Shown here: positions 298-48,600 of the stretch, in pieces
How positions within the stretch are numbered: position 1 is the first letter of the stretch
Layout: each line of letters begins with the position of its first letter
NCBI RefSeq assembly: GCF_021155765.1
Contig: NC_060105.1
Location: forward strand, 8,615,501-8,679,500
DNA length: 64,000 nucleotides
Direction: 5' to 3'
Source of the DNA: Diprion similis
Taxonomy: Eukaryota > Arthropoda > Insecta > Hymenoptera > Diprionidae
Translations under genes and position numbers: made by a program
The notes under the pieces: model-generated
Database searches by the model: none
What the model was told of the DNA's origin: nothing
The model's input: only the letters and a program-made list of their open reading frames with translations

Positions 298-3200
298 ATG
301 TCGGATCGGAAAGCAGAATTAGAACGGAAGAAGGCCAAGCTGCAGGCGATTCGAGAGGAAAAGGAAAGGCGGCGTAAAGAAAAGGAACAAAAAGATGTAA
401 GAAGAAAAATCTTATGGAAGAACATCGTTGATTTAGGATTTTCTTCACCAGAATCTTGAATTCGTTCCTTACTTATCTCAAAATTGGTGTGATATTTTTT
501 ACAAGGTCGAGGAAGCGACTGTACGAGCTGCAGGTGCCGATAAGGATCATCGGAAAGACTTGGATGCCATGTTATCATCTCTTGGGGTAGCACCAGTATC
601 AGGTAAAAAATGCATACTTTGAAACTTATATTACGTTGTTCAAAAATTCCCCGTCATACACTGTTAGTGGATTTATATAAAAATATTGGATAACAGATTG
701 AATTGTGATCACTTTACGCTTTTCATTTTTGTTGTTCATATTTCAGGTAAATTAGAAAATCGTATTCTCTGCTAAAATCAATCTTTAAAAAATTCCTTCA
801 GTCAGGCTTCATAAATGTTATCAAAAAAATCTCAAATTTTATTATACATTTATATGCTTACAGATGTATTATCCAGTCTCTCTAGTATGAACTCTTTGAC
901 TCCAGAGCAAAGTGCCAATGCTACACCAGACGCGAGCTTACAACCTTCCAGTATCAATTCTGTTCAAAGGTATTCTTCAAGATTCTAGGCTTAATATTTT
1001 ATTTGTGTTGTATTTAGTTATTATGTTTTACTTTGACTTCATAATAAAGGTAGTAGAAAGTCAATTATGTAGTATTGTGGAAATAAGGTTGAAAATGTAT
1101 CTAGGCTTGAAAAATTTCGTCTATTTTTTTGATATTTGATGTGTTCAATGAAGACAATTATTTAAATCTTTTGTCCATTCGTAGTATTCCAGGAAGACGA
1201 AAGGCTCCACGTGATTTAACTGCTGTTTCTGTGGCGCATACCGATATACCACCTAAGGAAGCTGTGGTATATAGTAAGCAGACACAAACTGCTCAGACGG
1301 CGCACACTTCACACGACGGTGAGTCTTGTTTTTAATCGTGCTTTAGCGTTTAAAATAGGTTTAACATCTTTAACGTAGTCAGAAAAGTCAGGTATTTGGT
1401 GTTATTCCACCAATGTCAACCGTACCTTTTCTGTTTTGAGTTCAACATAGCACACAATTGATTTTGGAATGTTAATACTGTGTACCATTTTGAAATTAAC
1501 ATGTACGTCCTCTATGATCAGTGATTGTAGAGAAAATGAAAGTAATTTCAACATTAAAAACACCACGACAATTGTGTGCTGCATACAGATTTGGTATCTT
1601 AATATGTGTATATAAAAAATCGCAAGGGCTTATTAAATTTTTATTTACATTTTATATGTTCGTCGAATGAATTAAATATCAACGGGATAAACAATTTGAT
1701 TTGATATCTGTGTGGTCAAAATTTTGCGTACTTAAAGGGAGGATACATTCAACTTTTCAAGTACTCTACTAATTCTTAATGCCTTAACCTTCCGTCTAAC
1801 TTGTTTTCTGTCTGAAACAAATTAAATGAGAGTTCGATTCTAGACGAATTATGTGATAATGACATGGATTCTCTCACGTCGGCTGCATCGCCAGTCATTG
1901 TCACAAAATTCGTATAGAATCGATTTCACATTTTGTTTCGGACTAGAAACAAGTTAGCTGGAAAGTTAAGGCATCAATAAATATTACTGTACATGATGCC
2001 TTAGTGTTAGGGAGACGGTAAATTTATTTCTTGAACAGTTTTCTGTGAGGAGTAAGATGGTGATAAAATGAAAATTAAAAAAAAAAAAAAATTTGACCTT
2101 TTTCCAATTTTCTTTCCTCGACCAAATTGCAGCATTGTAAAATCCATACGCAAAAGTTCGAAGAACATAATTTTACATTCGGTAAAAATTAGACTATTTA
2201 GAAAAAATGAAATCGCTTTCTGCTTGAAAAATATGTTAAAGAATCATATTTATACTATGGATATTACGATACTCCAATTTGGACGAGAAAAAAAATTCAA
2301 GAAGGGTCAAATTTTGTTTTCGTAATCTCTATTTTATCACCATCGTATTCCTTGCAACGAACTGTTCGAGAATTAAATTTACCGTCCCCCTGGCACCAAG
2401 ACGTTTTGTACCTGAAAAGTTGGGTGTACCCTCCCCTTAAATAAAGGCCCAAGCGTCATGCAAAGATTTTGAATAAACTTGTAATTTCATATAAATAATT
2501 ATTTTAGCCAAATATGGTATTGATATTAAAAACTGCAGAATTATCCTTGTTATTAGTTACACGGTGAAAGTAATATTCTGTATTTGAAATTTAACCAGAA
2601 AATTAATATTTTCGCTAGTCAGGATTCAGGTTTGAAGTTTTTATACGTTCAACTGTTTCACAAAAAAATTGTTGTCCAAAACAAAAGAAATTCAAGTTTT
2701 GGGATAAATCAACTTAAATCCTGATTATGAAATATTATGAAGAAAGTTGGCATTCAACTTTAGAATTGAATTACGAATATGGAATGCAATTTGTTTATTT
2801 TTTTATGAACATTTTTCATATTACCTTTTCAATTATATCTAACAGTTTCATGAGCTTTGTGATAATCAGCTCGCGAGTTAATGTAAGTCTTTTTTTTTTT
2901 TTTCCTTTTTGTTTCAACGTCTTAATCTCTGTGAAGCTGAACCGTACTCTGTTATTAATGACAGTCTATATATCTTGTGTGATTTAATTTAGTTAATTCT
3001 TATGTTAACTCTTACGATTTTCTACGATTCTTACTTTTAATACAAATAATATTTTGTTATAATTGCATAATATAACATGCGAGGAAACCTACATATTCAC
3101 ACGACACGTCGGTACGAAGAATTTTGTTTCCCTACCTCCAATATTTGTTTAACACTCCGTCTTTGGTCATAATCTAAATTGAGTCTAGCAATGTTCGCGG

Positions 3201-6054
3201 AGAGGCATTACATAGTAGAAAAAAATCATTCTGATTAGAGTGCTCTTCTACGTCGGAGTTTCAAGATTTTCTAATAAATTGTGTAATTATGTCACCTTCA
3301 CTTCATCATGTCACAAATATGTAGCCATTTCCGTTCATTGTTCAATTCAGCACAATTGCAAATCATTCAAAATTTCATTCAAACTATATTTTCAATTCTG
3401 AAACTCCAACTTTAAAATATCTCAACAGCGTTGATCCATATTTTCATACTTATATGAAATTGAAATACAAAACAAATAATATTATTATGAACTTTTTCAA
3501 CGCTATGCATTACGCACAGATCAATGTCAACGAATTGATGGAGCGTATCAAATTCAATTGAAGATGCACACTTTGGAAGTCAAAATACCTCTCCGCTACA
3601 CAAACGTACAAAGACAAGTAATACATAAAAGAAACGTATGTACAGAACGGCGAATTCCAAACGCAAAGCTCAAGTATTTATACTGCATTGAGATTGTTAT
3701 GAATCATTAAAGAATGTTATGAATCAAACTCATAATGAAATAGTTCTTACAAGTTGAAAGCTTAGGAATCAGGAATAGCTGTAAATAAAAAAGTGGTAAC
3801 AAATGTTGTATTTATTCTAGATTTTGAAGTAATCGTTCAAGTAATGATATTGATGACTTTAGTTATCAGTATTTGGGGTTCAATAATGTTCACTTTACAT
3901 TCCGTAGTTGATCTGATGATTTTTTAGAACACAAAAGCATTATGACACATTATTATGTTAATCGTTTGAAAGAAGGTTTATCTAGTATAAATATAACTGC
4001 GTTACATTCCAAAATAATATTTATGGATTTTGCGATGAATGCCTCATTCTGTACATACAAAAGCTTTCATTCTTGTTCGTTACGTCTGACTTTTCAGTTT
4101 AACTATAGTGTAATTTGTTACTTTCGTTGTTTATGAATATTGGTTTGGTTATTTCATTTAATCTCGGGATTTTAATTTAACCACTAACAATAATAGAAGG
4201 GTCAGTTCAATTGTAGATTAATCTTCTTGGAAGAAGATGTTATGTATATTTGTTGGAATAACAGTGTGAGGTTTGGTCTAAGGTTAAAATTACTATAAAT
4301 ATATTAACATATCTATCGTAATAAACATGTTTCAGATATTATACTGTACCTCTTGTGACATGATAGTTTTTGGCGATCAATGTCTAATCAGTCATATATT
4401 TTCTTATCAGAAATTTGATACGAATAGTTGAGCTATAAAATTTTGCAATCGTCAAATTAACACTTCTCAATTGATCAATAAGCGATTCTGTTAATTACAC
4501 AGTTTATCAATCCACTAATCATGACACAACTTGGTACTTTAGAACTTGGGATAAAGCTGCTCCTCTGGTTGGTATTTAAGTTGAAAGTATACAGTCGATC
4601 ACAGCTTCTAAGCGGAAACAGGGGATTATTAAATTGAAGTAAAATATAAAGTTGTAACGCGAGACGTGAAAATAACTCGAGAACATGAAGGTACTGGTTG
4701 ACCTAAAGTTTCTGCGATACTTATCGCCTTTTTTTCTAAAGGTAAACTCCAATCCTAGAAAATATGATGAATTGAATCAGTCAGGTTCAATCATTTTGAT
4801 AATTTATCACTGTGAAATGATTTTATTTTTAAGAAAACTCACAGTGTCTTTATTTTATCTAGAAATTATATTCATCGTTAAGTAAAAAAAGCTGTGGCTG
4901 ATGCCTACTATATACGTTATATATACTTAATTGCAACCTTATGTGGTATCCGGGTTACTACTTACTGTATAATGTACTGCGTTGTATTACTGCAGTTCAC
5001 TTAGCATAAGCAGGGCTCACGATTTTGCCTTTATCAAAAAGAATTCTGTAAATCTGTACAAAGAAAGAAATTGTTATTGAACGAAAATATCCACTTCATG
5101 TTCATTTTGCCTGCTTAAAACTTAAAATCAAGGATATTCGTAATTTAAATAATCGAAAGAAAGTATGAATCTCTTTCATGGTGGTTAAATTTATATTTAT
5201 ATCTTGACGTACAAAGTGGTGAACGATGATATTGAATTTTTTAACAACTGCTTATGCTAATTGATGTTGCGGTATCTTTAACTGTGCGCGTATGCCCTTG
5301 TCTTGCGATACAATTGGTCGAATCACCTGGTGTTGGACATAAGGACTGTCCACCTCTTCCTCCGCATACTCGATCTTCTCCTCCTGTTCAACAACCACAC
5401 CAACTCACTCTTGCTCCGCAGGCTACTTTGAGACCGACTGGTGGCGTCCCAGGAAAGGTGGGTCTGCACCAAACTACCTATGTATGTTCTGTCTACTTTT
5501 TTACTACACTTCCCTATATACCTTATTATAACTGTATTATAGAGGTAGATACTGGGTTAATAGAATTAAGTATTATGCCGATACTGTATGTAAGACTTGA
5601 TGCGTACCTTGTTATGAAATTGTCTGAAGATTGAAATCAGGCTCGATATTCATACGTATTTTAATTATCAACCATCTTATATACAGTATCACGGTTTGCT
5701 TGTACAAAAAGACGGCTTTCGACTGCTTAGATTTGCTTGAAAAAACTACGGGTTTACTAATAGAGAGGTACATACATGAAATTGGCAGGGTTTGTTTGAT
5801 TTTACAAATTACTACAAATATATGTACACATGTATGTTCTTATGACATTGAGTGGCATATTCACATACCTTTGTACAAACATTTGTTTCCATATCCACAT
5901 TGCGTTGCTTGCTTTGATGCTGACTAATAAGCGGTAACATAACAACGAAGAAGGATAAATAATGTTCATCATTTATCGAGAAACATCCGGGGGTTAGCAT
6001 AAGTGTGACAAGGCGTGTAAGTGAGATTTGGTACTCTGTTCAGCTGTGAAATTG

Positions 6055-6090
<36 letters not shown>

Positions 6091-9000
6091 AAAAGAATAC
6101 ATCCACCAGAGCAATACAACGATGTTCAACCGCTGTGAATAGGGAACAAATAATCTAACAACTTATCAATCAATTACTTTCCAGACATAATATCGTAAGA
6201 CTCAAAACAATGCAGAAGTCGTCAACGAGTTCTTACAATTCAGAGTTTGACTGTCTTGTTAACATGAAATTTTATAGAGCCTTAAATTTAATGTCAGCTG
6301 AAAGTTATTCCTGTAAATTCTTAGTGAAACCCTCAGGATAACATTTTTTGTTCTATACTGGAATCATTCTTTGATGAATTAATTTTTTTTTTTTTTGGTC
6401 AAAGTAGTTGCTATTCCACAGTTGTGCGGAGTACAGGGGTCGGACAACCGTTCGCGTTCAATTAAATTCATGTTTTCATGAAAATAAATAAGAATATCCT
6501 TTAGAGAATATTAAAAGGCAGTGTTCTTGAATATGTACGTTTCCTCCAATTTGTAGGGACCACAGCACTACACGATTTGGCAATTACAAATCAAACTGAC
6601 CTAACTACATTCAGCGTATCGAAATTACTTTTCAAATTTGAATAACATATCTGTTCAAATCGTAAAACATAGCTAATCACCAAGACGCACAATACTTTAA
6701 TAGCAGAAAAACAAATCATTTCACTAACATTGAATTATTGTCTAACTACAATACGTCTAGGACTACAGACGTATCTTTTCGCTCAAAGACTTTCTTTAGT
6801 TTCAATAACTGCCCTGTCTTTTACGCAGCTTACTCACTTGTATTGTAACAGGAAGTTAAAATTTTGAACTCTTCTCGCCAAATTATCTAAACTTTTGACG
6901 CGGTTCTGTTATTCGCGACCTAAATTCATTGGCTAGAAATGAAGAATTATTTTTAAAAACATAACGATTGCTCTGAGTGTAGAGAGGTGCCCTTAATGTA
7001 GCGTGTCGATGTCCAATTGTAACTAAGTGAAATTTTTTTTCCCTCCCCTCCTCAGCTCATGCATTCGGCTATTACGGTAAGTTATGATTTCTCTTGGTTT
7101 CCACCCATTTTGAGGCTCAGATTAGCTTATAGTTTATGCACAATTTATCCCCAATTGCCCTTCTGCAAAAAGTTAGTCCTTTCAGTTGTACATCCGCAGG
7201 GAAATATTCTTCACCATTGCTAAAAGTGAAAAGAAAACTACAAGGGCCCGTTTCAGAATCTGTAGAATGTATCATTTTGTTCTGCAAAATTCTATGGATG
7301 CTCGCTGTGCATTGACCTTTGCGTGACTGAATGGGTTAATATCGTAAAGTGAGGTGCATATTGAACCAACGGTTAAATTGGACTGATTTATAGGAAGTAC
7401 ATTTCTTACCCTATACTTTTCTATAGAATGGTCCAATTTAACTGGTGGTTTATTGTACCCTGCTTTACTATGTGTATATATTCCAACAGATGATGCATAT
7501 TTCAATGATTCGAAACAAATATGTAACAAACAAGGACAAATGATCGAAGAATACACAAAGGCGTCAGATGCTGTTTTAGTTATTATCCAGTTAGCCGTCA
7601 ATAGTTACTTAATTATTCGAATCGACTCTCCACCCAAAAACATTATTGACACCCACCTGTCTTGATGAGTTGCTTTTGTACTGTCAGTCTTTTTTAACTT
7701 TCCTTGGTTTTTCTTGAAGACATAACTACTGCCTGAATGTAACAACGATTCTCTCCAAAGCTTACGCGGAATCTGTTCTTTAGTCTTTCTTCTCCCTCCC
7801 CTGATTCCTTGCAATCGGATTCATTGGGTGTCTACATTTTTTCTATCTTTCTTCTTCGTCAAATTATTTTCATATTTCTCATTATCGACCTGACCAACCT
7901 GACATCTCGACTCTGAAAACTGTCCAACTATTGTGTGAAGTTTACTAGTTCCTCAAGGCTTTTAACATTCTAAAATTACCTCTATTTTCAAATATCCTCT
8001 TTCCAAGAATAACGTTTCTCATCGTAAAACTATGGTTTTATCTAGGTTTTTATTACTACACAATTTTCTTTTACATAAATTTTGATATACACTTATTATG
8101 ATATTTCATCTCATTTATATGAAATCAATGTGAATTGTCGAATATATTGATCATTGGCTCCTCTGAGAGCCTGAAAAAAGAGTAAAATTTTTATTAATTT
8201 TTCTAAATACAAACGTTACACTATGGGAAATATATAAAACTATACTATTAGTCATTAACTTACAATTCTTTAAAAAATATGTCCACTGCCAAATCTTGTC
8301 ACAACTTAACGCACCTTCCAGAGTTCTCAAAGCGAATACATATCGGCTGTTTTATTACTAACAATAATTGTTCATCTACGAATACGATAATCAGGCAGCT
8401 TAGGTTACGGTTTATTCTTATTTTTTTTTTACACCATTGTATGTGATGCCACGTTATTGTAGAAAATATGCAATATGCATTTACTTTTAAAGAGAAAAAC
8501 CACATATCACGGTGTAAAATGATTTTGCTTTGGCTCATGGGGATATGGGTATAAATTCTAATAATTTAGATGAGGAAATTTAGATAAATTCAATTAGAAA
8601 ACAGAACGAGGTGTTCTGATTGCTGATATAAATTCTTAACCACGATATTCAAGGAAGGTCGTAGCAACAAAATTTGTGGATGATATTTTCAAAATTCAAC
8701 GAATACTTGATAAAAATAATAAAACCAATGTCAGTATAAATCCATTTCTCTATTTAGAATATTGTTATACATCGAGGTACGCATGATTAAGGATTCACTT
8801 CATATTTCTTATTTTGTATACTTCGAGATTCTTTCTAACTACAGATATATCTTTATATGTTAGTTCAACTATTCAATATGTTTGTTCATAATCACTCTCC
8901 AAAAAATTAATTTCCATCTATTCATTAGAAAGAAAAAATAGTCGGAGATGTCAGTACGCTTATGCTACTTACCTCCCTAATATAAAAATCCTTTTTGCTT

Positions 9001-12000
9001 GCCTCCTTTTTTTTGTTGCTATGGATACTCCTTAGGATTTTATTGTAGCTCTTGATTAATAATGATAACAGGCCCTAGCATAGAACAGCGAAACGTTTAG
9101 AAAATGCAATTATACCGTGGAACTAAATTTAAGATTTTTTTTTTGTTTTCTTTTTATCTTGTTCTTTGACTCACAGCATGTAAGCAAACGAATTTTTTTG
9201 AAATTACTGATTGTTGATTCATATTTATTTGAGGAAGGTGAAAGTGTGCTGCTTCATCCTTGAAGCTGTAATAATAAAACTAAAAACAGTCAAATTGAAC
9301 TTATAATTATTCTACTATTTCTTTGAGTGAAAAATAAATTATGGAACTGAAAGAGAAAAAATTCCAATCATTAACAACGTTACGTGATACGATTTATGTT
9401 AAAAATAATATGCTGTAAGGTTGAGAGCGCATGATTAGTTGAAAGTCACAAATCATGGTCAAACAGTTGTAATACTGAGTAAATTGAAATTTTAAACAAA
9501 TCTAAAACAAAACCTAAAGACATTCTGATCAATGAACCATGAAATGTGATTTTGACGTGGTAAACTTATTTAGATGCCTAATTAGGGAAAGCTTTTTGCA
9601 TGTAGCTATAGCTATATAACACTGACTCGTCAACTTGATACATTTCAATCTGTTGGGGCAATTTTCGATGCATTTCTACATTTTGTCAAACAATTGTTAT
9701 CTGTTATGATAATTTTTATATTCGCCTAAGAATTTTCAAATTTGCCATGACTGTAAACGAATTACTTCGTCATAAAATTTCAAAGTTGGGTTAATAACAT
9801 TTACAGTTGAAAATCAGACTATAAAAATTTGCCAATTTTGAAGCCATAGATTTATTCAATGTTTATGTAAATGAAGTGAAACCATAATATAAAAAGAAAA
9901 AATATGAAAGCATTTGTTTGGATAACACACCTCAACTGTAATTTTTTTTTTTTTTTTTTTTAAAGTCAGTCACTGCTCACTTTGCTTTATTTCTAATTTT
10001 TTTACTTGATCACGGACCATTTGTTTTTTTCGCATTGTGCGGTGAAAAAAAAGTTTCGTTGAATACACAAATTATTGAGAGACAATGTTGATGATGCATC
10101 GACGATTGTTCGTATAGCAGGCTTGGAATGCAAAAAAATTAAGATACAAAATTGATTGAAGTTTTCTTTTCCCTCCTTCAAGACGAGTACAATCTAAATC
10201 CTGGTTTAGAGTGGGAGGACGAGTTTACAGGTAGGTAATCTTCTCCGAAGTTGATTTACTCTACCTTATTGTGTCACAAAAAATCACTACTTTTGTTTCA
10301 CGCTCACAAAAAAAAAAAAAAAAAAAAAAAAACAAACAAAAACTTATGCTCTCACATAAATATTCTGTGATTTCAATTTCACTGTGCCTGTACTTAAATG
10401 AGGGAGTCCACATTTAGGCCTATCCAAATTGCTTGATGAATTGAAGAAATATTAATCGATCTTTATATAACAGTTTTGCCTGCAAAAATGCTACATTCTC
10501 AATTAACTCGCAAGTTAATACATTGGAGACAAATACTAATGGAAATTTAGGTCACTTTTTAACGAAGTCTAATTATCATATTCTCAGTCTATCCTTCAAT
10601 GTAGTAGTATAATTCAAATTATCGCAAGACTTCTTGCAAACTGTAACAACGTGGAACTTTTATCTTGATTTTGCCTTAAATATTATTGCAACATTGTGCA
10701 TTAGGTACATATGAGCTTGATTAGTTTAATATTCATAAAATGTGTAAGTGATTGAAATACAATCAGTGAGTAACGCTCGTATTATCAGTTTGTTTTGTTG
10801 GATTTGCCTCAATTAGCAATTGTATTTCCTTCAATTAATTTGACAGTCTTGTATTATGTTGTCGATTCGTGCATGAGACTCGGAAGCTGTGTTAACTTGT
10901 CTCTACTTGCCTTGCTTTTATCCTCTGCATCTTTTTCTGTAGGTAAAAATAAGTCCAAGTAAGGTGGCATGATTTTTATTCATTCCTCTGAAATATCTTT
11001 CTTCGATTGAATATGCCACTAACTGTAATAAAAAATGTATTCCTGCTGATAATGATTGGTTTGTTAAGACTAAGAAATTATCATAAAGCTAGCTTCAATG
11101 ATATAGTGGCCCATGTCAAACTACACTGCTTGATAATTTCAACGACAAAAGCTCAGTCAATGCTATTTTATACATCGATAATTTTATTCTCGAATGAATA
11201 TCGGTCATTAGGAAGTTCACGAATTCACAGCCACTAGGAGAAAATGTCTTATTCAGTCTAAATTTGTGGCGTGTGTAATTTGGTGGTTTTCACAGATTGC
11301 ACATTTGCAACTGAAACTCAACCGATCCATCTTGTCAATTATTATGGAGTTTGTCGTGGTCTGTAACTGAATCATTCTCGATTAGCACCTCAGGGTGGAG
11401 AGACTCGAGTTAAGCAAATCAAATATCTGAAGGGGGTACATACCTTCAGCACTGGGGAAAATGAATATTTATATGATTGTATTTTACGGAGTGTATTGTG
11501 AAGAAAATAACACAAAATATTGATTACATATTATTTACTGATCATTCAAAAGTGAGAAAAAAATTTGTTAAGAAAATTATTTTTGACAAATTACATGTGT
11601 ATTGGAATTCTTTAGGCCACTGTTGCACTTTCAATTGATTCCGTCAATATAAGTCGATGAATCTGAAAAGTTCAAACAGCTTGTTGTACTGTAAAGTTTC
11701 AATACGCATGTAATTTATCACAAATAATTTTCTTAGCAAATTTTTTTTTCACTCTCGAACGATCAACAAATAATGTGTAATTAATATTTTGTGTTATTTT
11801 TTACGGTATACTCCATAAAATAAACCATAAAAATATTAATTTTCGCCAGTGCTGGAGATATGTACTCTCTAAATAATTATCTCTATTGCGCACGAGTTAT
11901 GAACCTTTAGTTTTGTAAGACAGGTATACAACTATTTAATGCATGGGTCTCACAATGTTTCATAATATTTATTTATTAATTTATTTATTTGAAAACTTTG

Positions 12001-14622
12001 CTTGAGCAGGTATGTTACCTAGAGCATTATTTCGATGCTTTTTCAAAGAGTTTCACGCTTCGTTTGATTTCTCTTTAATGCAAGCATCATTTCATGCTTT
12101 TAGTAATATAAAAACTAAAGAGTATACTATTAGTCAGTAAGGCGGCCGATATCAATCCTTTGTTCAGTGACATTGAAGTAGTTTGATAACGACAAGTCCC
12201 TTCTTGCAATTGATGTTGTTATTTAAATTACATGGATCATTAAACCATCGGTAGAAGCAATGTGTGCGATTTATTAATGATTACAAAGTGAGGGTTTCAA
12301 ATGCTCAAACTCGTAGTTGTTTAGCTAAGCCTACCCTACGTTTAGCTTGACCCCTTTCATCGATGTAATCATTCAATAAAACATTCATGTTTACTAATGA
12401 TGATCGCAACATGTGCTAAATCACTCCATAGAATGTAAATTGAAATTAGAAAGAAATGAGTAGTTAGACTAGCTAGTTAGGGTCGTGATGGGTCTGGGGT
12501 ACTCGTTACGGGGCCAGCTTATTCACCACAGTTTTGACATTTGATGATGGCCAAGCCGAGGATGAAGAAAGCAGTCTGCCTCACATGGACGGATTCCAAA
12601 GTAAACTTCCACCTGGGATTTTGCCTCATGGACTACCGCAAGTCAAAGAAGTTCAACCAGCCGTTACACAAGTCGAACAGGAGAAAGAAAAAGAAAAACC
12701 CAAAGAAGGTGTGTCTATGTGTCGTTTACCCAAATTTATGTAACATGTAACTTTGCATTTACAATGTTTAATGTTAATCTAATTTCAACGTACATTACAG
12801 TACGAGAGCTTAGCGAGGAAGAAAAGTTGATGACTATCCTGTCGGAAGAATTTCAACGATTCTTGGACCGTTCGAGCAGAGTGGTGGAAAGAGCTCTCGG
12901 TGAATCGGTAGATATTTATACAGATTACACTGGTATAATCGATGGAGAAGATGGAATGTAAGTACAAGATGTTTATATTTGTAAATTACTCTGAATAAAT
13001 TAATGCGTTTTTCTGTAATGGTAGGATTTTACTTAGAAATGATGGATGTATTGTAAACATGAGTAAAAATTTTTCAGTGATGAAAAGAGTCATCAGCGTC
13101 TATCACTGAATCGTTCATTTTTCTGTGATCGCTGGTCACGTAATCGCTGCATTACTTCATTGGATTGGTCACCGCAATTTCCAGAACTGTTGGCTGCGTC
13201 TTACAAAAACAATGATGACACACCAAACGATCCAGATGGAGTTTGTTTAATCTGGAACACTAAATTTAAGAAAACAACACCTGAATACATTTTTCATTGC
13301 CAGTCGTCAGTCATGGCCACAACTTTTGCTAGGTTTCATCCGAATTTAATTTTGGGTGGTACATATTCAGGGCAAATCGTTCTGTGGGATAATAGGGTTC
13401 AGAAAAGGACCCCCATTCAACGCACTCCACTTTCAGCGTCTGCACACACAGTAAGTTTATCTATCAATTTAAGCCCACCATTCACCTCATCATTTATTGC
13501 AATAATAAATTCACAAAAAAATGTTGACTCGAATGATTTGATCTAATCAATAATTTTCTCGCTTCCCAGCATCCTGTGTATTGTTTAAGCGTAGTAGGAA
13601 CTCAGAATGCGCACAATTTGATCAGCATTTCAACAGATGGAAAATTATGCTCGTGGAATTTAGACATGTTGTCTCATCCTCAAGAAACGCTTGAACTTCA
13701 AGCAAGACAGTCGAAACCAGTCGCTGTAACTTCGCTTGCTTTTCCAAGTGGAGATGTTAACAATTTTATTGTTGGCAGCGAAGACGGTACTGTTTATTCA
13801 GGTGAGTAAAAATATTTTCCTTCCCAGTATTTCGATGCGAGAGTAAAAGTGTTCCTGCAGAAACATGTTCGTTATGATTATTCAATTGCAGCTTGCCGTC
13901 ACGGAACGAAAGCTGGCGTGACAGAAACTTACGAGGGACACTTAGGGCCTGTTACCGGAGTCAGTGCTCATGCAGTACAAGGGGGCATTGATTTCTCTCA
14001 TCTGTTTCTAACTTCGTCTATTGATTGGACGATCAAATTGTGGAGTCTGAAGGAGAACAAGCCTTTATATTCGTTTGAGCACAATGGAGATTATGTGTAC
14101 GATGTCGCATGGTCTCCTACACATCCTGCTCTATTTGCAGCCGTTGATGGATCTGGTCGTTTAGATTTATGGAATTTAAATCAGGATACCGAGGTTCCAG
14201 CAGCGAGCGTAATCGTTGATGGATGCCCTGCTTTGAACACAGTCTCTTGGACACCAAGCGGACTGCATGTTACTGTGGGCGATGATACTGGGAAAATATG
14301 GGTTTACGATGTAGCCGAGGTACGGTTTGCAGTGCAATACGATATCTATCATTATATTCAATTGTATTTTGAAAAATCTCATCTCAATTTTCACATGATA
14401 TTTTGTTAGTTTTCTTTTCGTTGTAGTTAGGATTGTTACATCTATTCTTCTTACGTTTTACAGAATTTTGCTCACCCACGAATCGACGAATGGAACAATT
14501 TCCTCTACACTCAGCAAGATCTGAAGAACAACAAGGCCGATGAAGAGTTGGATAAGCTCAACTTGAGTTCTGGCCCTTCGTCTTTGATATCCATGCCATC
14601 TTTGTCGGGTCCGATCAGATAA
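298..14622 (+). CDS. sw: Cytoplasmic dynein 1 intermediate chain, 13 coding exons
   Basis: Scaffold subunit of cytoplasmic dynein: it binds dynactin p150 through its N-terminus, carries the light chains, and docks on the heavy chain through WD40 repeats. Exons: 298-396, 506-602, 864-969, 1185-1318, 5422-5457, 7056-7076, 10183-10230, 12532-12708, 12801-12957, 13078-13450, 13570-13801, 13892-14319, 14464-14622. All introns are GT-AG and phases agree. The full form is 688 aa; without the three microexons it is 653 aa, near the usual length. The N-terminus [16 protein letters not shown] is the charged coiled coil. SKQTQT in exon 4 fits the LC8 site, with the Tctex-binding stretch just before it. 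[16 protein letters not shown] fits the roadblock-binding helix. WD40 repeats run from exon 10 to the end ([40 protein letters not shown]). Two ATGs occur in tandem (295, 298); 298 gives the family start MSD. The first nine exons spread over 12.7 kb, while the WD40 half is compact. Confidence 0.95.
1731..2441. mobile_element. Inverted-repeat element in dynein intron 4 (outer)
   Basis: The left arm (1731-1764, then continuing from about 1993 past aatttatttcttgaacag to ggtgataaaat near 2068) is complementary to the right arm (about 2330-2441). Matching blocks include cttaaagggagga against tcctccccttaa-type sequence and gatggtgataaaat against attttatcaccatc. The arms are diverged, roughly 80% by eye. 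No transposase ORF is present, so it is a non-autonomous foldback/MITE-like element. Confidence 0.75.
1761..1992. mobile_element. Nested inverted-repeat element inserted in the outer element
   Basis: A hairpin of about 230 bp whose arms run from ctaattcttaatgccttaac through gattctagacgaatt to the complementary aattcgtatagaatc and gttaaggcatcaat. It interrupts the left arm of the surrounding element at GTAC, which occurs at both ends (1761-1764 and 1989-1992) as a likely 4-bp target duplication. Removing it restores the outer arm's match to its partner. Confidence 0.7.
2442..5421. other. Dynein intron 4, remainder
   Basis: AT-rich intron sequence without a supported gene. Short open frames here show no recognisable family and no coding bias that I can see. 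A short T-run lies near 2889. Confidence 0.5.
5422..5457 (+). CDS. sw: Dynein intermediate chain microexon A (36 nt)
   Basis: Encodes [12 protein letters not shown] when read in phase 1 from exon 4. A long pyrimidine-rich tract ending in ctccgcag precedes it, and the donor is gtgggt. It is a multiple of 3 and phase 1 on both sides, so it can be skipped without frameshift. An alternative upstream acceptor after cataag (exon 5344-5457, 114 nt, same phase) is possible but has a poor pyrimidine tract. Confidence 0.7.
6060..6088. repeat. Poly(A) tract
   Basis: An uninterrupted A-run of about 29 nt in the intron between microexons A and B. No target duplication or retroposon body was recognised upstream. 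Confidence 0.9.
7056..7076 (+). CDS. sw: Dynein intermediate chain microexon B (21 nt)
   Basis: Encodes AHAFGYY in phase 1. The acceptor follows a strong tract (ttttccctcccctcctcag) and the donor is gtaagt, a near-perfect consensus. Aromatic-rich like microexon A. Phase 1 on both sides, so it is skippable. Confidence 0.72.
7336..7476. mobile_element. Short inverted-repeat element (hairpin)
   Basis: About 140 bp. The left arm (cgtaaagtgaggt... accaacggttaaattggac...tatag) pairs with the right arm (ctata...gtccaatttaactggtggt...gctttac). The inner 19 bp pair with two mismatches and the outer arm is more diverged. It lies in the intron between microexons B and C. It could be a tiny MITE or a hairpin RNA source. 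Confidence 0.6.
7477..10182. other. Dynein intron between microexons B and C, remainder
   Basis: AT-rich, with short homopolymer runs (T-rich near 9943-9961). Nothing coding is supported. Confidence 0.5.
10183..10230 (+). CDS. sw: Dynein intermediate chain microexon C (48 nt)
   Basis: Encodes [16 protein letters not shown], continuing from microexon B in phase 1. The acceptor is ttttccctccttcaag and the donor is gtaggt. Acidic and aromatic. It joins exon 12532-12708 ([13 protein letters not shown]). In Drosophila the equivalent of that exon follows the LC8 site almost directly, which suggests A, B and C are optional. Confidence 0.75.
11436..11865. mobile_element. Long terminal-inverted-repeat element, about 430 bp
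   Basis: The left arm begins gtacataccttcagcactgg and the right arm ends ccagtgctggagatatgtac. Arms of about 165 bp pair along most of their length, with shared blocks such as aataacacaaaatatt and aagaaaattatttttgac. About 100 bp of central sequence is unpaired. There is no ORF. It lies in the dynein intron before the exon at 12532. Confidence 0.8.
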
Positions 14623-17462: not shown

Positions 17463-17578
<116 letters not shown>

Positions 17579-18581: not shown

Positions 18582-18908
18582 ATGCTGCTATTTTGTCCAA
18601 CCTGTGGAAACATTCTACATGTCGAATCGGGCTTGGCGAATTACCGATTTGCGTGTAATACCTGCCCTTATGTCTTTAATATATCGCAAAGAATAACAAG
18701 TCGGACTTATCCAAAGCTCAAGGAAGTAGACGACGTTTTAGGTGGCAGCGCTGCGTGGGAAAACGTCGACGCAACAGATGAACGCTGTCCCAAGTGCTCT
18801 CATTCTCGGGCCTACTTCATGCAGATACAAACGAGATCTGCCGACGAGCCAATGACCACATTTTACAGATGCTGCAATCCACAGTGCAGTCACAATTGGC
18901 GAGATTAA
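18582..18908 (+). CDS. POLR3K: DNA-directed RNA polymerase III subunit RPC10 (C11)
   Basis: Pol III subunit needed for RNA cleavage, termination and reinitiation on tRNA and 5S genes; nuclear. The protein is 108 aa, the same length as human POLR3K, and the family is recognisable end to end. The N-terminal zinc ribbon has C5, C8, C25 and C28. The conserved linker is YPKLKEVDDVLGG (43-55). The C-terminal TFIIS-like ribbon has C69, C72, C97/C98 and C102. The acidic hairpin D88-E89 within TRSADEPMTTFY is the part known to reach the polymerase active site. The CDS is uninterrupted. The first ATG after the 5' UTR acceptor gives the family start MLLFCP. YRDC follows 183 bp downstream on the same strand, so the 3' UTR must be short or the transcripts overlap; AATAAA occurs near 19035. 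Confidence 0.97.
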   Translation: MLLFCPTCGNILHVESGLANYRFACNTCPYVFNISQRITSRTYPKLKEVDDVLGGSAAWENVDATDERCPKCSHSRAYFMQIQTRSADEPMTTFYRCCNPQCSHNWRD

Positions 18909-19091: not shown

Positions 19092-19877
19092 ATGTTGAAA
19101 TTATTTCGCAGCAGACCAACAATGAGTTCCGATGAAGTAAGGAAAAAAAGCATGGGTCCAATGAAACAAACATTGAGGTCGCTCGAGACGCAGCTTAAAA
19201 ATCTACAGCCTGGTATGTCAGATTTTGGGTTCGCTTATGGATCAAAGAATGTGGCTATGGCCGTTCGCTTGCTTCAAGATAAACACGTCATAGCATTGCC
19301 AACGGATACCGTCTATGGTTTGGCAGGATTGGCCCAAAGCAATGAATCTGTTAAAAAGTTGTATGAAATCAAGCAACGGGATCCTTGTAAACCGCTGGCA
19401 ATTTGTGTCGGTGAAATTGTGGATGTAAAGACTTGGGGTATCGTCGATTCTCTGCCAAAAGGATTGCTGGAAGCGTTATTACCCGGACCTGTGACATTAG
19501 TTTTGAAACGTACACCAAAACTGAATCCACTATTTAATCCTAATGTGCAAAATGTGGGGATTAGAATTCCTAATGCAAAATTTATCAGAGATATTGCAAA
19601 AAGACTAAGGGAACCGTTGGCTCTGACGAGCGCCAACGAGAGTAACAAGCCAAGCACGATACATCCCGAAGAATTTTCTGCACTTTGGTCGCATTTGGGA
19701 GGTGTTTTTTATCCGGATGAAAGAGTCGCAAGCGATGGACTGGAAAGAGCTGGTTCTACCGTTGTTGATTTATCTCAGCCTGGTGGATATTCTATAATTC
19801 GTAAAGGAAGCGCTGAATTTGAAACTGTTCAAGTTTTGAAAAGCTTTCAGTTAATAGACTGTGATGATAAACGTTGA
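19092..19877 (+). CDS. YRDC: Threonylcarbamoyl-AMP synthase (YrdC domain protein)
   Basis: Makes threonylcarbamoyl-AMP from Thr, bicarbonate and ATP, the first step of N6-threonylcarbamoyladenosine at tRNA position 37, in cytosol and mitochondria. It is 261 aa in one exon; human YRDC is about 279 aa. The YrdC/Sua5 fold is clear: PTDTVYGLA (70-78), KQRDPCKPL (94-102, the Lys/Arg nucleotide-binding motif), PGPVTLVL (131-138), GIRIPN (156-161) and the LTSAN motif (178-182). The N-terminus MLKLFRSRP is short and basic, like a mitochondrial presequence. A second in-frame ATG at 19122 (MSSDEV) would give a form without it. The Sua5-specific C-terminal domain is absent, as usual for animal YRDC. Confidence 0.96.
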   Translation: MLKLFRSRPTMSSDEVRKKSMGPMKQTLRSLETQLKNLQPGMSDFGFAYGSKNVAMAVRLLQDKHVIALPTDTVYGLAGLAQSNESVKKLYEIKQRDPCKPLAICVGEIVDVKTWGIVDSLPKGLLEALLPGPVTLVLKRTPKLNPLFNPNVQNVGIRIPNAKFIRDIAKRLREPLALTSANESNKPSTIHPEEFSALWSHLGGVFYPDERVASDGLERAGSTVVDLSQPGGYSIIRKGSAEFETVQVLKSFQLIDCDDKR

Positions 19878-23670: not shown

Positions 23671-26600
23671 CTAGTCCTCCTTATTAGAAAACATGCTCAA
23701 AACTCCTTTTCTTCCATCGCGTTTGAATATTCCCATTAAACTGCTCCGTAATCTGTAAGAAGCGAAAGTTTGTAAAAAAAAATAAATCATCGATTGTTGA
23801 CAAATAATAACATGTATGTACATTCGTTTACTCTTCATTCCGTTGAGTCTGATCAGAGTAATGTAAAAACTGTTTTACTCACCTTGCATATATTTCCTTT
23901 CGTACAGTAGCCGTGAATTTAGTAGCGAGGCAAGCAAACGTGGCAATTGTGAATATCAAATTGTAGAACAAGACCAATTTGAAATTGCCAAGCCACTCGA
24001 TCCGCCCAAAGTCTCCGAGTAAATCAAAATTTGTCATTCCTGTTTTGAATTATAAACCGTTAGTTCAAGAATCATTATAGTAAAACATCTAAAAGTTTTT
24101 ACCGTCCTGTCATAAATATTAAAAGAAGGAAAAATAGGTCAACATTATGAAATACCTAACTCACCAAGTATTCTCGACAATAGCGGAAGGGCAGAGCTGA
24201 GTACAAGCAGCAGCGCACAATTTGCAATGATGTGCGTTAGGGGAGTGGAATGAAAGTGGGGTCGAACTCTACGGACTCCGGGTAGGGAATAAAGACCGAT
24301 AGCGCTTGTCGCAGCCAAGTATAAGATCACCGCAACTTCAACTGTCGCCCCAATCGGCCCCAGCTTAGACAGAGAGCTGATTCCTAATGTAAATTGCTGT
24401 AAACAACGACGACAGGATGTTTAGTTAAATCAAGACAGCTCTGGTAGTGGTTTTTTTATTTATGTTCAACTCACTCTTGTGCTCAGAGGTAAGGCCTTAA
24501 TGCCGATAAGTAACTCGATGGTATTTTGGACGGCAAGAAGAGCCGTCGTTGTTGAAAGTACCAACAAGGCAAGCATGGCTATAGGATACAACAAAGTTCT
24601 GCGCACCCACCAAGTACGCCTCTGTTTGTCCAATAGCTTTCTTCTCTGTTGTACAGACTCTAGTGTCTGAGTTAAACCGCGTTGTAACTCTCCATTTTTA
24701 AGACACATTAGACCAGGATTTGCACTCGGTAATTCTTCTTCGTCGTCCACAATGTTTCCGCAAGTTGCCGGAGACATAGGCATCGGTGATATGTAAGATT
24801 TACCCGTCGCTGTAGCATGTTGCAGTCTAGACGAAAGCAAGAGGCTTTATTTGAATTATTCTAATTATGCCGTATTAACAAGTGAAAATAAAAATTCTCA
24901 TTGAATCGAGATTCAGAGAAGAAAGAGAAACTCGTTTTCGAAGTAACACAGTAACATTCAAGTTCTATGCTGACCTTCTTTGATTACAATCTTCTTCAAA
25001 CTTGTAGGCAAAAAATTCTTCATCCAAATTCTTTAGGAATTGAGGTTTAACAAGAAACGAGCCCACAACTCCAAACAATTGGACAAATCCTACCGGAGTG
25101 CACACTGTGGAGTAATTTTACATCCCATTAGAGAAAATGTTGAGCTAATTATTTATTGGAATACAAAGTGAATAACAATTTCTCGGGATAATATATTACT
25201 TACGTAATAGCATAACCACTCCGACAAAAGACACGCAGGAGTATAAAAACGGCAAGTAATAACTCCATAAATCTGTGAAAATAGTCAGATATTATATACA
25301 CGTTATAATCAATTAAAGAATCAAAGACAAAAGTTTTATCATACTCACTGAGCAATGTGTGAAGACTTGACTTGTGGTGATCGATGAGAGCGGACAAGAT
25401 GTAAGTCATTCCAAGAACTAGTGCTCCAAGTAGGCACAATACAGTCACTGTTTCATAAACCCTAGCCATAACACCCTAAAAAGAATAGCGTAAAATATAA
25501 CTCGAACGAAATAGCTGATGATTTTCACACTTATTACAAATTTTTGAAATCAAAATTTCCCTGCAGTAACAAGAATATATATATCTCTAGTGTGGGCACA
25601 ACAAGAAAAAGAATTAATTCAGTACTTCTTACGATCTTACATATGATTTTTCTATCAGATGAATTTTGTAAATGTATTATTCAAATCGACTCTTTACCTT
25701 TCGATACCCAACGAATCCCTCAGATTCCGTGAAGAGGTAGGCGAATGGCAAAAACACGAACAAGGATAAGTTCGAAAACAGAAACACATGGTTCCAAAGT
25801 CCTGCAATACATGAAAGTACAAAATTACAAAATTACGAATCGATAGAAAAATTAATCGAGCAAAGGAGAACGGAGTCAGATAATCGTCAGGCTTTATTTT
25901 AGGCCTATTTGTTATTTTTGAACTGAGAAAAATTCATGTCACTCTTATTACCTTGTATCAGGGAGCTGTTGAGCCACTTGACGTAGTAGCTGTTGGGGTA
26001 AAGTATGAGAACTTCGTTGCTAGCAATGGATACCGGTAAAAGTAGCGTCGCTCCGACCGAAACTGCGAGTGCAGCGGTACAGAGCCACAGACTAATTCTG
26101 TATACCGTTGCCTCATCTTCGTCCACTACAATATAATCCTCTCTATCTTTCCTTCTGAACCTTGCTATCAGTGCGTAGCTCGAAATGTATAGCAGCAAAA
26201 AGAGCAGTAGAAATATCTGTAAATTCGAAAAAAAGAAAGGTACAGAATATGAGAATGATAATACATTTCTTCTACAGCTATTCTGAAACTATATGATTGA
26301 AAAATTTTTCATTAGTACTCTACAATTCTCAAAGAATTTGTTACTTTAATTGAATGGATAAAAAATGTATTGCATTCACGTTTAGGATCATGAAACAGCT
26401 TCATTATCAGTATCGTTGATAAAACAACAGTCAATATTGTGAGATCTGGTTAACTGTAACATGTAATCTAAACGGTGAGTGAAAAAAACAAATTTTCGTG
26501 ACCTAGTTGACACAAATGAAGCCTCATATATATACAATAATTGGTGTTTGTATTCGATTTCACATTCGCGAAAGTGAGTGTAAATTGATAATTTAAACAT

Positions 26601-39051: not shown

Positions 39052-40311
39052 CTAGGCAACTACTTCTCCAAAGTTCATGTGACCCGTATCCTTCGCGTGT
39101 TGCTGCGCCGCTAGCTGCCCGTTTAGCATAACGTTACACTCCATGCATTTCAGGGTAAACTTTTGCACGTCCGTGTACTGACGACTGGATTTAGCTTCTT
39201 TCGCCAATTCCGTAGCTTGTCTCAACAGCCTGTCGTCGCTCGCAGGAAAAATTGTTTGGATACTACCACCCTGTTCAAGATATAATATAGATTATTTGGT
39301 TATTTCCTTGTTTCAAGATTATCAAAAAGTAGCCTCGATTCGAACATCGAAACTTACGATCTCTGCACTCGTCTTTACTTTTTATGAATCAATTCGCGTT
39401 AACTAATCGTGCAGCTGCTTCTTCTTTATTAATTCGATTTACAAACGAAATTTAGAATATAAATAATCGTATCGTCACATACGTAAATAAATAATTAACT
39501 TACGTCCAACGGTTCCAAGTAAAGAGGATCGTAGTGAATACCGTCGAACATTAAGAAGACCCTTTGAGCATAGTGCTGATCCTCGCCAAATCTGTTTATG
39601 ATAGCGTTAATACTGTCAACTACGGCTATTTCCAATCCATAAAACCAAGAAAGTATCGCCAGCTCTATCGCACCGCCCCAAGAGTCGACCTTCTTTATCC
39701 ATTCGCAATACTCGCCGTTAGGACGTCCAAGTATCGCCTCCGAATACTCTTCAGGATTAGCCGAAACGCTTTCGGCAATTATTTCCCTCATGAAACTGGC
39801 GCAGGTTGTATCGACCTTTCCTGAAAACCGATGGATGAATATACATAATACGAGTGTTAGAAAACTTCAGTTTAATTTATACATAGAAAATAGTTTTACC
39901 GTTAAGGACATATCCGACGCTGGTGAAAAGGCAAGAATTATCCGCGGGCACGATCTTTTTCATTAGAACGCCGGGACTATCGCTCAGAGTTTCGGTGTCG
40001 ATGATATGAGATCTCGCAACCGTGTGATGTTCACGCTCTAACGATTGCTGCTTCGGTTTAACAGGCGGTTGTTTTTCTTCAACGATCAGCGTGTCGCCGG
40101 AAGTGATTCCAGAATCTTCCAGCGCTACGTCTTCTTTGCTTAGATCCAACGCTTTGGGTGGAAAGCCGCCCAGAATGTGGAGAGCGACTTGAGGTATTCC
40201 CGTCAGGTCTGACAGCTTGGATTTTAATTCGGAAACTTTGTCTTTACCTGTTAAACCTTTGACAAGGTTTTGACCTGATTTTGTTTTAACCTTCAATACA
40301 AAACTTGCCAT
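39052..40311 (-). CDS. YOD1: Ubiquitin thioesterase OTU1 (YOD1)
   Basis: OTU-family cysteine deubiquitinase that works with p97/VCP in ER-associated degradation and quality control. Three exons: 40311-39900, 39820-39504, 39270-39052, with consistent phases, giving 315 aa; human YOD1 is 348 aa. Residues 1-80 form the UBX-like domain that binds p97 ([14 protein letters not shown], then [13 protein letters not shown]). The OTU domain begins near 115. The active-site loop PADNSC gives catalytic D124 and C127, and H233 in GIHYDPLYL is the catalytic His. The C-terminus has the C2H2 zinc finger, KCMECN...[11 protein letters not shown], typical of OTU1. The three exons divide the protein roughly by domain. 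No residue expected for activity is missing. Confidence 0.96.
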
Positions 40312-45695: not shown

Positions 45696-48600
45696 TTAAT
45701 CGTAGGTCTCGGACTCTTGTTGTACTAGCTTAAAACGACGGGGACTCTTTACGCACATCGATCCGTGTCCTTCGACCGAAAGACGACCTTTGCGTTGCAG
45801 ATATCGCTTTATGTATCTTGATATCAATTTCTGCGGACGAATCTGCCATTCTTCTAATACCTCCTTTGGCGCCATTACCTAGAGCAATGATGAATAAAAT
45901 TGACCTTGAATTTAGAGCGTATATTTATTTTTTTTTTAGATAAATAACGAAGGCAGAAGTAAAAATATTGCGTCGTAATTTTTGTTTGTAAATAAAAAAA
46001 ATGTTTTCGATATTAGCCGCAGTGCGAATATTTCGTAATGTTAACGTTGTTATCTATTATCGCTTACTTCCAATCGTCGCATCGTCAAAGGTCGGGAGAT
46101 TATCTTTTCATTATAACGATGACGTACTTTTTAATGAACTTTTACGTACCCACACGGCTGACCTCTTTAATATGTTTTTAACTTTGCTTTCAAGTTTGTA
46201 TTTTTGTTTATTTGTTTGTTTACTTTAAAAAGTTCGCATCTGCGATTTCGACAGCGTATCATTTTCTGTGATTTTAATCTAGTCGATTTTGCCCGGAAAC
46301 TACTGATTCTCAGCTTTTTTTTTTTTGTAAAAGCTCGTTTATACATGGTTAGAAAAAAATGTCTCCAGCGGTCTACTAAAATTTTAATCACTAAGTGATA
46401 GATAGAAGAAAAAAAACTGTAAATTGAAAATAAAATTTCGATATCAGAATTTCAATGTTAAAATCACAATAATATTTGTATATCATATTCAGTAACAGAA
46501 ATGTAAGAAATTGAACAAATACAAAGTTAAATCTGCCGAGAGAATATGCTTAAGTGAATTTTTCTGTCAGTCTAACAACTGACCTTAAGTTAAGGACTTT
46601 ATCGTTATGTATTATTATCAATAAAATAACTTACCTGATCGCCTTTGAGTCGATCGAGTAGAGTTACGCAGACGACCGCTGATTTAATGCCGGCGTGGTG
46701 GGTTAGAGATGCGAAAGACAGGCTTTCCATTTCGATATTAACAACCCCAGCCTTGTGGACCTTGTTCAGATACTCCATCTTCTCGTTTTCGGAAAAATCA
46801 CAGAATGCACCGTCGAGACGTCCCTGACCTTCGTAGAAATCGTAGGTACACATTGTCTTGCCAATCACTGTGTCGTACGGCTCTTGATCGGGTCGTGACA
46901 TCGCCTTTAATTCGCGCGCTAAATGCTTGTCTAGTTTTGACGGTCTGTGAATCATTTTACCTAGGACTGGCTGAAATAGAAAAAAAAAATACATACACCA
47001 AGTTAGCATCTGAAATTTTCACGAATGTCTATCATGGTGGAATTGTATTGAAGTAAGGATTTTAATGACAATTTAATCGTTCTACATTCTCAACGAATCT
47101 GTTGTGAAGTTTCCTTTTTATTTTCTTTTTCTTTTTTCTTTTTTATCAGATACTCTTGATCGTAACGTTGATTATTTTTATTAATTGCCTTTCGATGAAG
47201 GGAAAATCGTTGCAACTTTTCGATTGTACGTTGATTTAATGAACTCTGAATACGATAGAGCAAAATTCCGTAGAGCAAAAGTACGGAGAATAAAGTGAAA
47301 GTTGGAAAATTAAAATGTACTCAAACAACGTAGTTTACTCGATGAGTGAGTGTAAAAAATTGGAAAAACCGAAAATCAGAATGACCAGGATTCCGAAGGT
47401 AAAAATATCGAATATCCAAAACAAATATATTTTAACACTTTTTGCGAAACGACGCGACGTTTAACTTACGAGTTCTAAAAACGGCCTGAGAAGACCGTCG
47501 ACAGCCTCTTCGGATATGACGACGGTACCACCTTCGAGGCCGATTCCGCCGCAGGTTCCGATCCTGAAGAAGATCGGATCCTTCACTTTGGCGTGATACA
47601 TGAGCTTTATAATTTCGTGAAGCAGTATCCCGACCGAAGGAATGCCCATGCCGTGCTGTATATTATAAATAAAAATAAAAAAAAAACGAATTAACATATA
47701 TGTTTATTTATATTTATTTAATTTTTACGCATTAATATCGTAAGTCTTAATTTCCGGATGGTATTTGGGCGATATACTCACGCTCACTGAGAGAACAGGG
47801 CCAACTTTGTACATTGAATAACGATAGGAAAATTGACTGATGTCAAATAGGGTTGTGCCGCATGGTAGTTTGTGACCGATTTCTTGCATTATGTAATTTG
47901 CGAACTGTTCGACTCGCTTCGGCGTTCCCCCCATGCAGACGAACTGTAAAAGTGCACAGAAAAATGGACATCGGAATAATTAATCAAACGAAAATGACGA
48001 AATGCAATTGCGTGTGTATATTTGCGAGGTTCATGTAACAAAATACGTGTTTATTAATTGTAAGTTAGATGAGGAGCAATTAGGCAGAGATCACGTGGCT
48101 ATGACAGGGGCAGTTAACTCAGTGAATTGGAGAAATCGTATGAAACGAAACGGAAAAAGAAAAAAAAACAAATAATTATAAAGTAGATACGTTACGTCAC
48201 GTATGTTGCGAATTTGCCAGTGGCGTAATCATACATATATACATACATTTCTTATAAAATTGAGCAAACAATTTCTAAATGAAATTTAATTAACATTTCG
48301 TATTCATTCTTTTTGTCTATGAAACCTTTTTCAATTCTCTTTCATACTTCTCCGAAAACGCTTCCGTTTCCCATTTTCTGTCTTGTTTTTTGTATTTATT
48401 CTTGAATCTCACTCTAATAATTTATGTTAAATGAAAGTTAGAAATTAGTTTTTCATAAGATTTTAGAATCTAGAATATGATAACAGATTTTGAGTTAGAC
48501 GTTAGTTTAATCGTGAAAATGAAATTACAGACACTAGGTCAAGAAAAAAACCTTACTCGGTGAAATTCTTCGAGAGTATTTTTCCCGGTTTCAGTGAGTA

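Follow-up and report, generated by a model that had tools for sequence, protein, structure and literature searches.

A candidate kinesin light chain-binding motif in one of three small in-frame exons of an insect dynein intermediate chain gene

Introduction

The subject of this study is the gene for the cytoplasmic dynein-1 intermediate chain (DIC) in a 64,000-nucleotide stretch of the genome of Diprion similis (Hymenoptera; Diprionidae), positions 8615501-8679500 of contig C1 in a 269-Mb assembly of 60 contigs. This stretch is referred to here as the window. Three small exons, called mini-exons 1 to 3, lie far apart in a large gap of the gene. In the third, the sequence LEWED matches the W-acidic motif recognized by the tetratricopeptide repeat (TPR) domain of kinesin light chains (KLC), and this motif is missing from the form of the protein in which the mini-exons are skipped. 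The same genome encodes a KLC with the groove residues that have been tested by mutation in KLC2. We put just short of an even chance on the reading that this insect has a splice-controlled link between dynein and kinesin-1, placed differently along the protein than in mammals.

The basic question behind this work is how a minus-end motor gets to axon tips. In mammals a direct DIC-KLC link has been described for neuronal splice forms (PMC4893161). W-motifs in spliced mammalian DIC are already known; the candidate described here lies at another position, in an insect DIC. The result supplies a candidate, a motif and a one-residue test.

Results

The DIC gene and its mini-exons

The gene occupies 298-14622 on the forward strand and has 13 coding exons in our gene model (Table 1). 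It encodes an uninterrupted protein both with the three mini-exons (688 residues) and without them (653 residues, the skip form). The product has the features of a DIC: a Dynein_IC2 region (Pfam PF11540, residues 108-136, E 1e-12), an LC8 motif, a roadblock helix and a WD40 propeller (PF00400, matching the C-terminal half, E 9e-15). The N-terminus aligns to PDB DIC2 chains, starting at their residue 5, and the LC8-motif and roadblock-helix regions align to the intermediate chain peptides 3fm7_C and 3l9k_W, respectively, which we take to be Drosophila peptides.

The mini-exons share a gap of 11.2 kb between the exon end at 1318 and the exon start at 12532. In the protein this is past the LC8 motif and ahead of the roadblock-binding helix, as a preliminary description of this DNA had placed them. 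Its exon boundaries are exact to the base. It had also claimed that any combination of the three would leave the frame intact, giving up to eight isoforms. Indeed, when all 8 combinations were built, every one was in frame (653-688 residues), because the mini-exon lengths are multiples of three and the phase is 1 on both sides. Length divisible by three, equal phases and an in-frame skip form, the marks of a cassette exon, are found in all three. The term microexon used in that description holds for all three under a 51-nt limit, but only for the 21-nt exon under a 30-nt limit (both limits from the literature). Together the mini-exons add residues 146-180 (35 residues) of the 688-residue protein, starting 9 residues past the LC8 motif. 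This insert had been described as adding aromatic and acidic residues, and its aromatic share is 10 of 35 (29%), whereas the remainder of residues 1-260 is 2.2% aromatic.

Splice signals and base composition

Splice matrices were made from nine donors and nine acceptors, those of the eight other introns and the two outer ends of the gap, so that the sites of the mini-exons themselves were excluded. Candidates were stop-free phase-1/1 stretches of 15-60 nt between AG and GT. Mini-exons 2, 1 and 3 rank 1, 2 and 3 among the 225 candidates in the gap (scores 18.8, 14.8 and 14.4), and none of the 281 on the opposite strand of the gap reaches 14.4 (best 13.9). As a null sample, 20 unselected 10-kb genome stretches were scanned on both strands (40 strand-stretches). 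There, 14 of 10152 candidates score at least as high as the lowest mini-exon, which corresponds to 0.39 expected per 11.2 kb and to a Poisson P of 0.0075 for three or more; none of the 40 strand-stretches holds three.

Under six other settings P was 0.0022, 0.031, 0.034, 0.041, 0.093 and 0.28, the last when lengths not divisible by three were allowed, and three or more such candidates occurred in 0, 2, 1, 1, 1 and 12 of the 40 strand-stretches, in the same order. With lengths restricted to multiples of three (six settings), the mini-exons always take ranks 1-3; when this demand is dropped they take ranks 1, 3 and 4 of 1124. Since P varies from 0.0022 to 0.28 across the seven settings, the splice signals by themselves are evidence of moderate weight.

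The pooled G+C content of the mini-exons is 0.495, as against 0.321 for the intron and 0.445 for the remaining exons (random placement gives P 0.001). Taken singly, only mini-exon 1 is extreme (0.583, in the top 0.6% of intron windows), the other two lying at 12% and 9%. On the combined evidence, the three mini-exons are very probably real.

Several further features were observed in the gap. Mini-exon 3 contains an internal alternative 3' site, which would give a 21-nt version (10210-10230, EWEDEFT) lacking the leucine and which scores 8.4 as against 14.4. A 126-residue open frame at 5254-5634 (+), partly proline-rich, overlaps mini-exon 1 in a different frame and is probably due to chance. 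Between mini-exon 3 and the next exon, at 10930-10950, a pyrimidine tract is followed by TGTAG/GTAAAA, a possible recursive (zero-length) splice site. Two imperfect inverted repeats, at 11493-11811 and 1989-2411, have arms of 115 nt (84%) and 100 nt (77%), respectively, and are perhaps MITE-like. A genome search for duplicates with the 35-residue peptide gave mini-exon 3 itself (residues 19-35) as the sole match, mini-exons 1 and 2 being too short for this search. Tandem duplication was considered as an origin of the three peptides and rejected, their sequences looking unrelated when judged by eye.

The W-acidic motif of mini-exon 3

The W-acidic motif is built around a W that usually has D or E as neighbours, often together with L or M at W-2, and is present in neuronal DIC splice variants (PMC5450233). 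In LEWED (residues 173-177) the W has acidic residues on both sides and L at W-2. The pattern has a single match in the 688-residue protein and none in the 653-residue form. LEWED shares the L, the E, the W and the second acidic position with the SKIP peptide TNLEWDDSAI, for which an X-ray structure with the KLC2 TPR domain has been reported (PMC6214655); E replaces D at the first acidic position.

None of 9939 distinct null pseudo-exons contains [LM][DE]W[DE]. Among shuffled versions of mini-exon 3, 1.8% contain this pattern and 0.5% the five-residue form. These frequencies do not amount to a pre-planned test, because LEWED was noticed after the peptide had been read. The prior for LEWED as a KLC-binding motif is raised by the fact that this class of motif is already known in the same subunit. 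The tryptophans of the insert are at residues 152, 153 and 175, exons 1-4 encoding none (the first W is residue 152), and TDWW of mini-exon 1 is a possible second W-motif.

In the literature, a W-acidic motif in an insect DIC was not described in the titles or abstract openings of the matches listed, which is no claim of its absence from print. One 11-mer of the insert had no match in the literature text searched, and for sub-peptides of the insert the only string among the matches listed was GLEWEDE, in papers titled on topics unrelated to dynein. Relatives were also sought in prokaryotic and viral contig collections, and these searches therefore say nothing on conservation in insects. A degenerate mini-exon 3 pattern gave 0 matches in either collection. 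With queries from the WD40 part, 24 stretches of prokaryotic contigs matched the pattern and 0 encoded a relative; among viral contigs, one of three stretches gave a match (28 residues, 46%), which was read as a WD40 match and rejected as a DIC.

A kinesin light chain in the same genome

A KLC is encoded at C8:8288353-8289240. Two places are read as exons of one gene, and one gene was seen among the best candidates scored. The part of its TPR domain that was searched is nearly identical to PDB KLC1 chains (best 5 of 16 chains). The equivalents of R251, N287 and R312 in the W-acidic pocket (KLC2 numbering) are present. The N287L/R251D change in KLC2 is reported to lower W-acidic cargo binding dramatically, and KLC2 R312E is reported to be unable to bind W-acidic cargo. 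Equivalents of N244 and K325 are present as well, and the set of five is found in one place of the open frame with the right spacing. The latter two positions were derived from KLC1 N259 and K340, residues lining the Y-acidic site next to the W-acidic pocket, using the offset of 15 between KLC1 N343 and KLC2 S328. The insect protein also has the self-inhibiting LFP-acidic segment, as DLFPDDDNDD.

At the position of KLC1 N343 / KLC2 S328 the insect KLC has N. It is therefore KLC1-like, and may also accept Y-acidic peptides.

Marks of splicing control

In flies, exons that depend on eMIC are described as marked by a UGC close to the 3' splice site, an extended AG-free zone, tracts rich in UCUC and a strong CUAAY branch point, and their turnover among insects is described as rapid (PMC8797185). 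Of these marks, mini-exon 1 shows a TGC at -10, an AG-free zone of 76 nt and two UCUC/CUCU words. The AG-free zones of mini-exons 2 and 3 are 26 and 19 nt long, with no TGC within 50 nt, and no CTAAY occurs in the AG-free zones of the three mini-exons. Constitutive exons of the gene can show such marks too: TGC stands at -5 and -9 in two of them, and their AG-free zones are up to 94 nt long. The mini-exons resemble the eMIC/Srrm234 neuronal microexons of insects in being small and in frame, mini-exon 1 in addition sharing the TGC and the long AG-free zone; that they are under neuronal control is a guess. PF15230 (microexon regulator) had no match in the genome, a silence that is uninformative because all 14 controls were silent too. 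The word dynein does not occur in the main text of the insect microexon and splicing papers searched for it.

Other features of the window and assembly

Besides the DIC gene, Pfam matches in the window identify TFIIS/RPB9-type zinc ribbons, in a neighbour that is presumably RNA polymerase III subunit-like, together with a Sua5/YrdC protein, an OTU1 UBX-like domain and part of a nucleoside phosphorylase (Table 1). The frame at 24466-24840 (-) has no Pfam match. A long (AT)n microsatellite lies at about 17468-17576. TTAGG repeats are found at the start of contig C1, with 17,417 overlapping matches in the assembly on both strands as against 2 for the reversed pattern, which is consistent with an arthropod genome.

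Table 1. Coding exons of the DIC gene and neighbouring frames in the window
Feature	Position	Strand	Description and basis
DIC coding exon 1	298-396	+	start, N-terminal coiled-coil-like; gene model, DIC2 alignment
DIC coding exon 2	506-602	+	gene model
DIC coding exon 3	864-969	+	serine-rich, no tryptophan; gene model
DIC coding exon 4	1185-1318	+	Dynein_IC2 region, LC8 motif KQTQT (residues 132-136); ends in phase 1, ACG/gtgagt
Mini-exon 1	5422-5457	+	36 nt, 12 aa; cag/GCT...AAG/gtgggt; tryptophans after acidic residue
Mini-exon 2	7056-7076	+	21 nt, AHAFGYY; cag/CTC...ACG/gtaagt
Mini-exon 3	10183-10230	+	48 nt; aag/ACG...CAG/gtaggt; W-acidic motif LEWED, residues 173-177
DIC exon after mini-exons	12532-12708	+	joins exon 4 directly in skip form; gene model
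DIC exon with roadblock (LC7)-binding helix	12801-12957	+	gene model; 3l9k_W alignment
DIC WD40 exon	13078-13450	+	gene model; Pfam
DIC WD40 exon	13570-13801	+	gene model; Pfam
DIC WD40 exon	13892-14319	+	gene model; Pfam
DIC last coding exon	14464-14622	+	ends at TAA; gene model
Zinc ribbons, TFIIS/RPB9-type	18582-18908	+	Pfam
Sua5/YrdC	19092-19877	+	Pfam
OTU1 UBX-like	39877-40311	-	Pfam
Nucleoside phosphorylase (part)	46605-47009	-	Pfam

Discussion

A possible splice-controlled link to kinesin-1

Taking mammalian DIC1 as the model, we propose that the three mini-exons are cassette exons of the insect DIC whose splicing would be regulated, probably in neurons. Mini-exon 3 would place its W-acidic motif in a presumably disordered, acidic linker right after the LC8 site. 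On its inclusion the concave groove of the TPR domain could accept DIC, which would displace the LFP-acidic segment of KLC, and dynein would then be loaded as kinesin-1 cargo and travel towards microtubule plus ends. On its skipping, dynein would be left without this kinesin handle. TDWW of mini-exon 1 may supply a second, weaker tryptophan to a motif of two parts, and mini-exon 2 may provide spacing.

A number of observations weigh against this proposal. LEWED was spotted only once the peptide had been read, and D and E are abundant in mini-exon 3. In mini-exon 1 there is no acidic residue after the tryptophans of TDWW, and the mammalian WD2 peptide alone is reported not to bind KLC (PMC4893161). 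An older DIC-KLC interaction is cited as lying outside the TPR motifs (PMC9203973), in disagreement with PMC4893161. The eMIC code is followed only in part, and by mini-exon 1 only, and the splice statistics weaken when settings are loosened (P to 0.28). The kinesin side of the proposed switch is present, but any animal would be expected to have a conserved KLC groove, so that it supports feasibility only. Finally, the mammalian inserts precede the Tctex and LC8 sites whereas the insect insert follows the LC8 motif and the PF11540 region.

The insert may instead serve the linker itself, as the preliminary description supposed: real cassettes would alter its length, charge and aromatic content near the LC8 site, and thereby light-chain, dynactin or NudE binding, with LEWED incidental. 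The start of the insert so close to the LC8 motif favours this, as do reports that light-chain assembly on the intermediate chain is modulated by linker length and that autoinhibition may vary between isoforms with linkers of unequal length (PMC9771362). The same source places the dynactin/NudE site at the N-terminal single helix, about 100 residues off, and the exact match to [LM][DE]W[DE]D and the parallel with mammalian DIC1 would be left unexplained. An effect of the insert on light-chain or dynactin binding is possible; no motif behind such an effect was found in it, and we consider this account of the mini-exons rather unlikely. Far less credence is due to a link between dynein and autophagosomes through Atg8 binding, the least probable of the explanations considered here. 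EDEFTVL, formed where mini-exon 3 joins the next exon, fits what we take to be the LC3-interacting region (LIR) consensus. The strict pattern occurs once in the 688-residue protein (residues 176-182) and not in the 653-residue form, so that it needs mini-exon 3, but shuffled mini-exon 3 yields it in 3.0% of cases, oftener than LEWED.

Two further explanations concern the exons as such. Were the mini-exons always included, as small exons among long introns, every DIC of this insect would have the motif. Their splice sites are good, that of mini-exon 2 being the top-scoring of all candidates, yet cassette exons typically combine symmetric phases, a frame-keeping skip form and a small size within a long gap, and all of these are seen here. 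Moreover, the DIC isoforms of mammals and flies are reported to be produced by alternative splicing, and constitutive inclusion thus seems improbable. That the mini-exons are chance open AG-to-GT stretches is very improbable. In favour of chance is the finding that, without the multiple-of-three demand, 12 of the 40 controls hold at least three candidates; the top three ranks under every setting that keeps this demand, the pooled G+C content and the lack of [LM][DE]W[DE] among pseudo-exons speak against it.

Comparison with mammalian and fly intermediate chains

Neuronal DIC1 of mammals carries a pair of W-motifs, situated in two short loops that are subject to alternative splicing; both motifs are missing from the ubiquitous DIC2c (PMC4893161). 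According to the same report, the WD1 peptide binds the KLC1 and KLC2 TPR domains with KD values of 7.6 and 9.2 uM, only the double W-motif mutant of full-length DIC1 consistently lowers KLC co-precipitation, and a WD1-based blocking peptide reduces the mean anterograde population velocity of dynein-GFP in axons by >50%. The insect DIC resembles mammalian DIC1 (Twelvetrees 2016) in having short optional inserts, splice-dependent tryptophan motifs and a form without them, the widespread isoform in mammals. It differs in that KLC binding was measured for DIC1, while the insect motif is predicted from sequence. SKIP (PLEKHM2) also has a motif under splicing, a splice variant removing its second W-motif (exon 7); unlike DIC, it is a lysosomal adaptor and not a motor subunit.

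The mammalian splice variants follow the coiled coil and precede the Tctex/LC8 sites (PMC2908135, Kuta 2010). In agreement with this, the PDB DIC2 chain 7z8f (638 residues) has inserts with EYW and TLHWDTD ahead of these sites, and the 612-residue isoform 2C chain lacks both; the tryptophan spacing is 35 in 7z8f and 22-23 in the insect DIC. At the mammalian-type insert site of the insect gene (introns 1-3), in a scan limited to phase 1, candidates score no more than 8.1, as against 14.4 for the lowest mini-exon. Since the order of sites along the protein differs, simple descent of the same exons from a shared ancestor appears unlikely; a parallel origin, or an ancestor with both insert sites, would be the alternatives.

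For Drosophila, the preliminary description held that the flanking exons are joined almost directly. This comparison is probably incomplete, as a review gives the fly DIC at least 10 tissue-specific isoforms. Drosophila short wing/Cdic (Nurminsky 1998) thus offers a likeness of its own, a single insect DIC with many tissue-specific spliced isoforms.

It is possible, though doubtful in our estimate, that insects and mammals separately evolved a splice-controlled tryptophan handle for kinesin-1, made of two parts and lying ahead of the light-chain sites in mammals but behind them in the insect. If so, this would be a case of parallel evolution of splice-regulated dynein-kinesin coupling, and would give the linker between the LC8 and roadblock sites a partner. 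A differently placed insect version would also show strong selection on the link, and would add to the mammalian DIC1 system a genetically handy one in which it could be tested.

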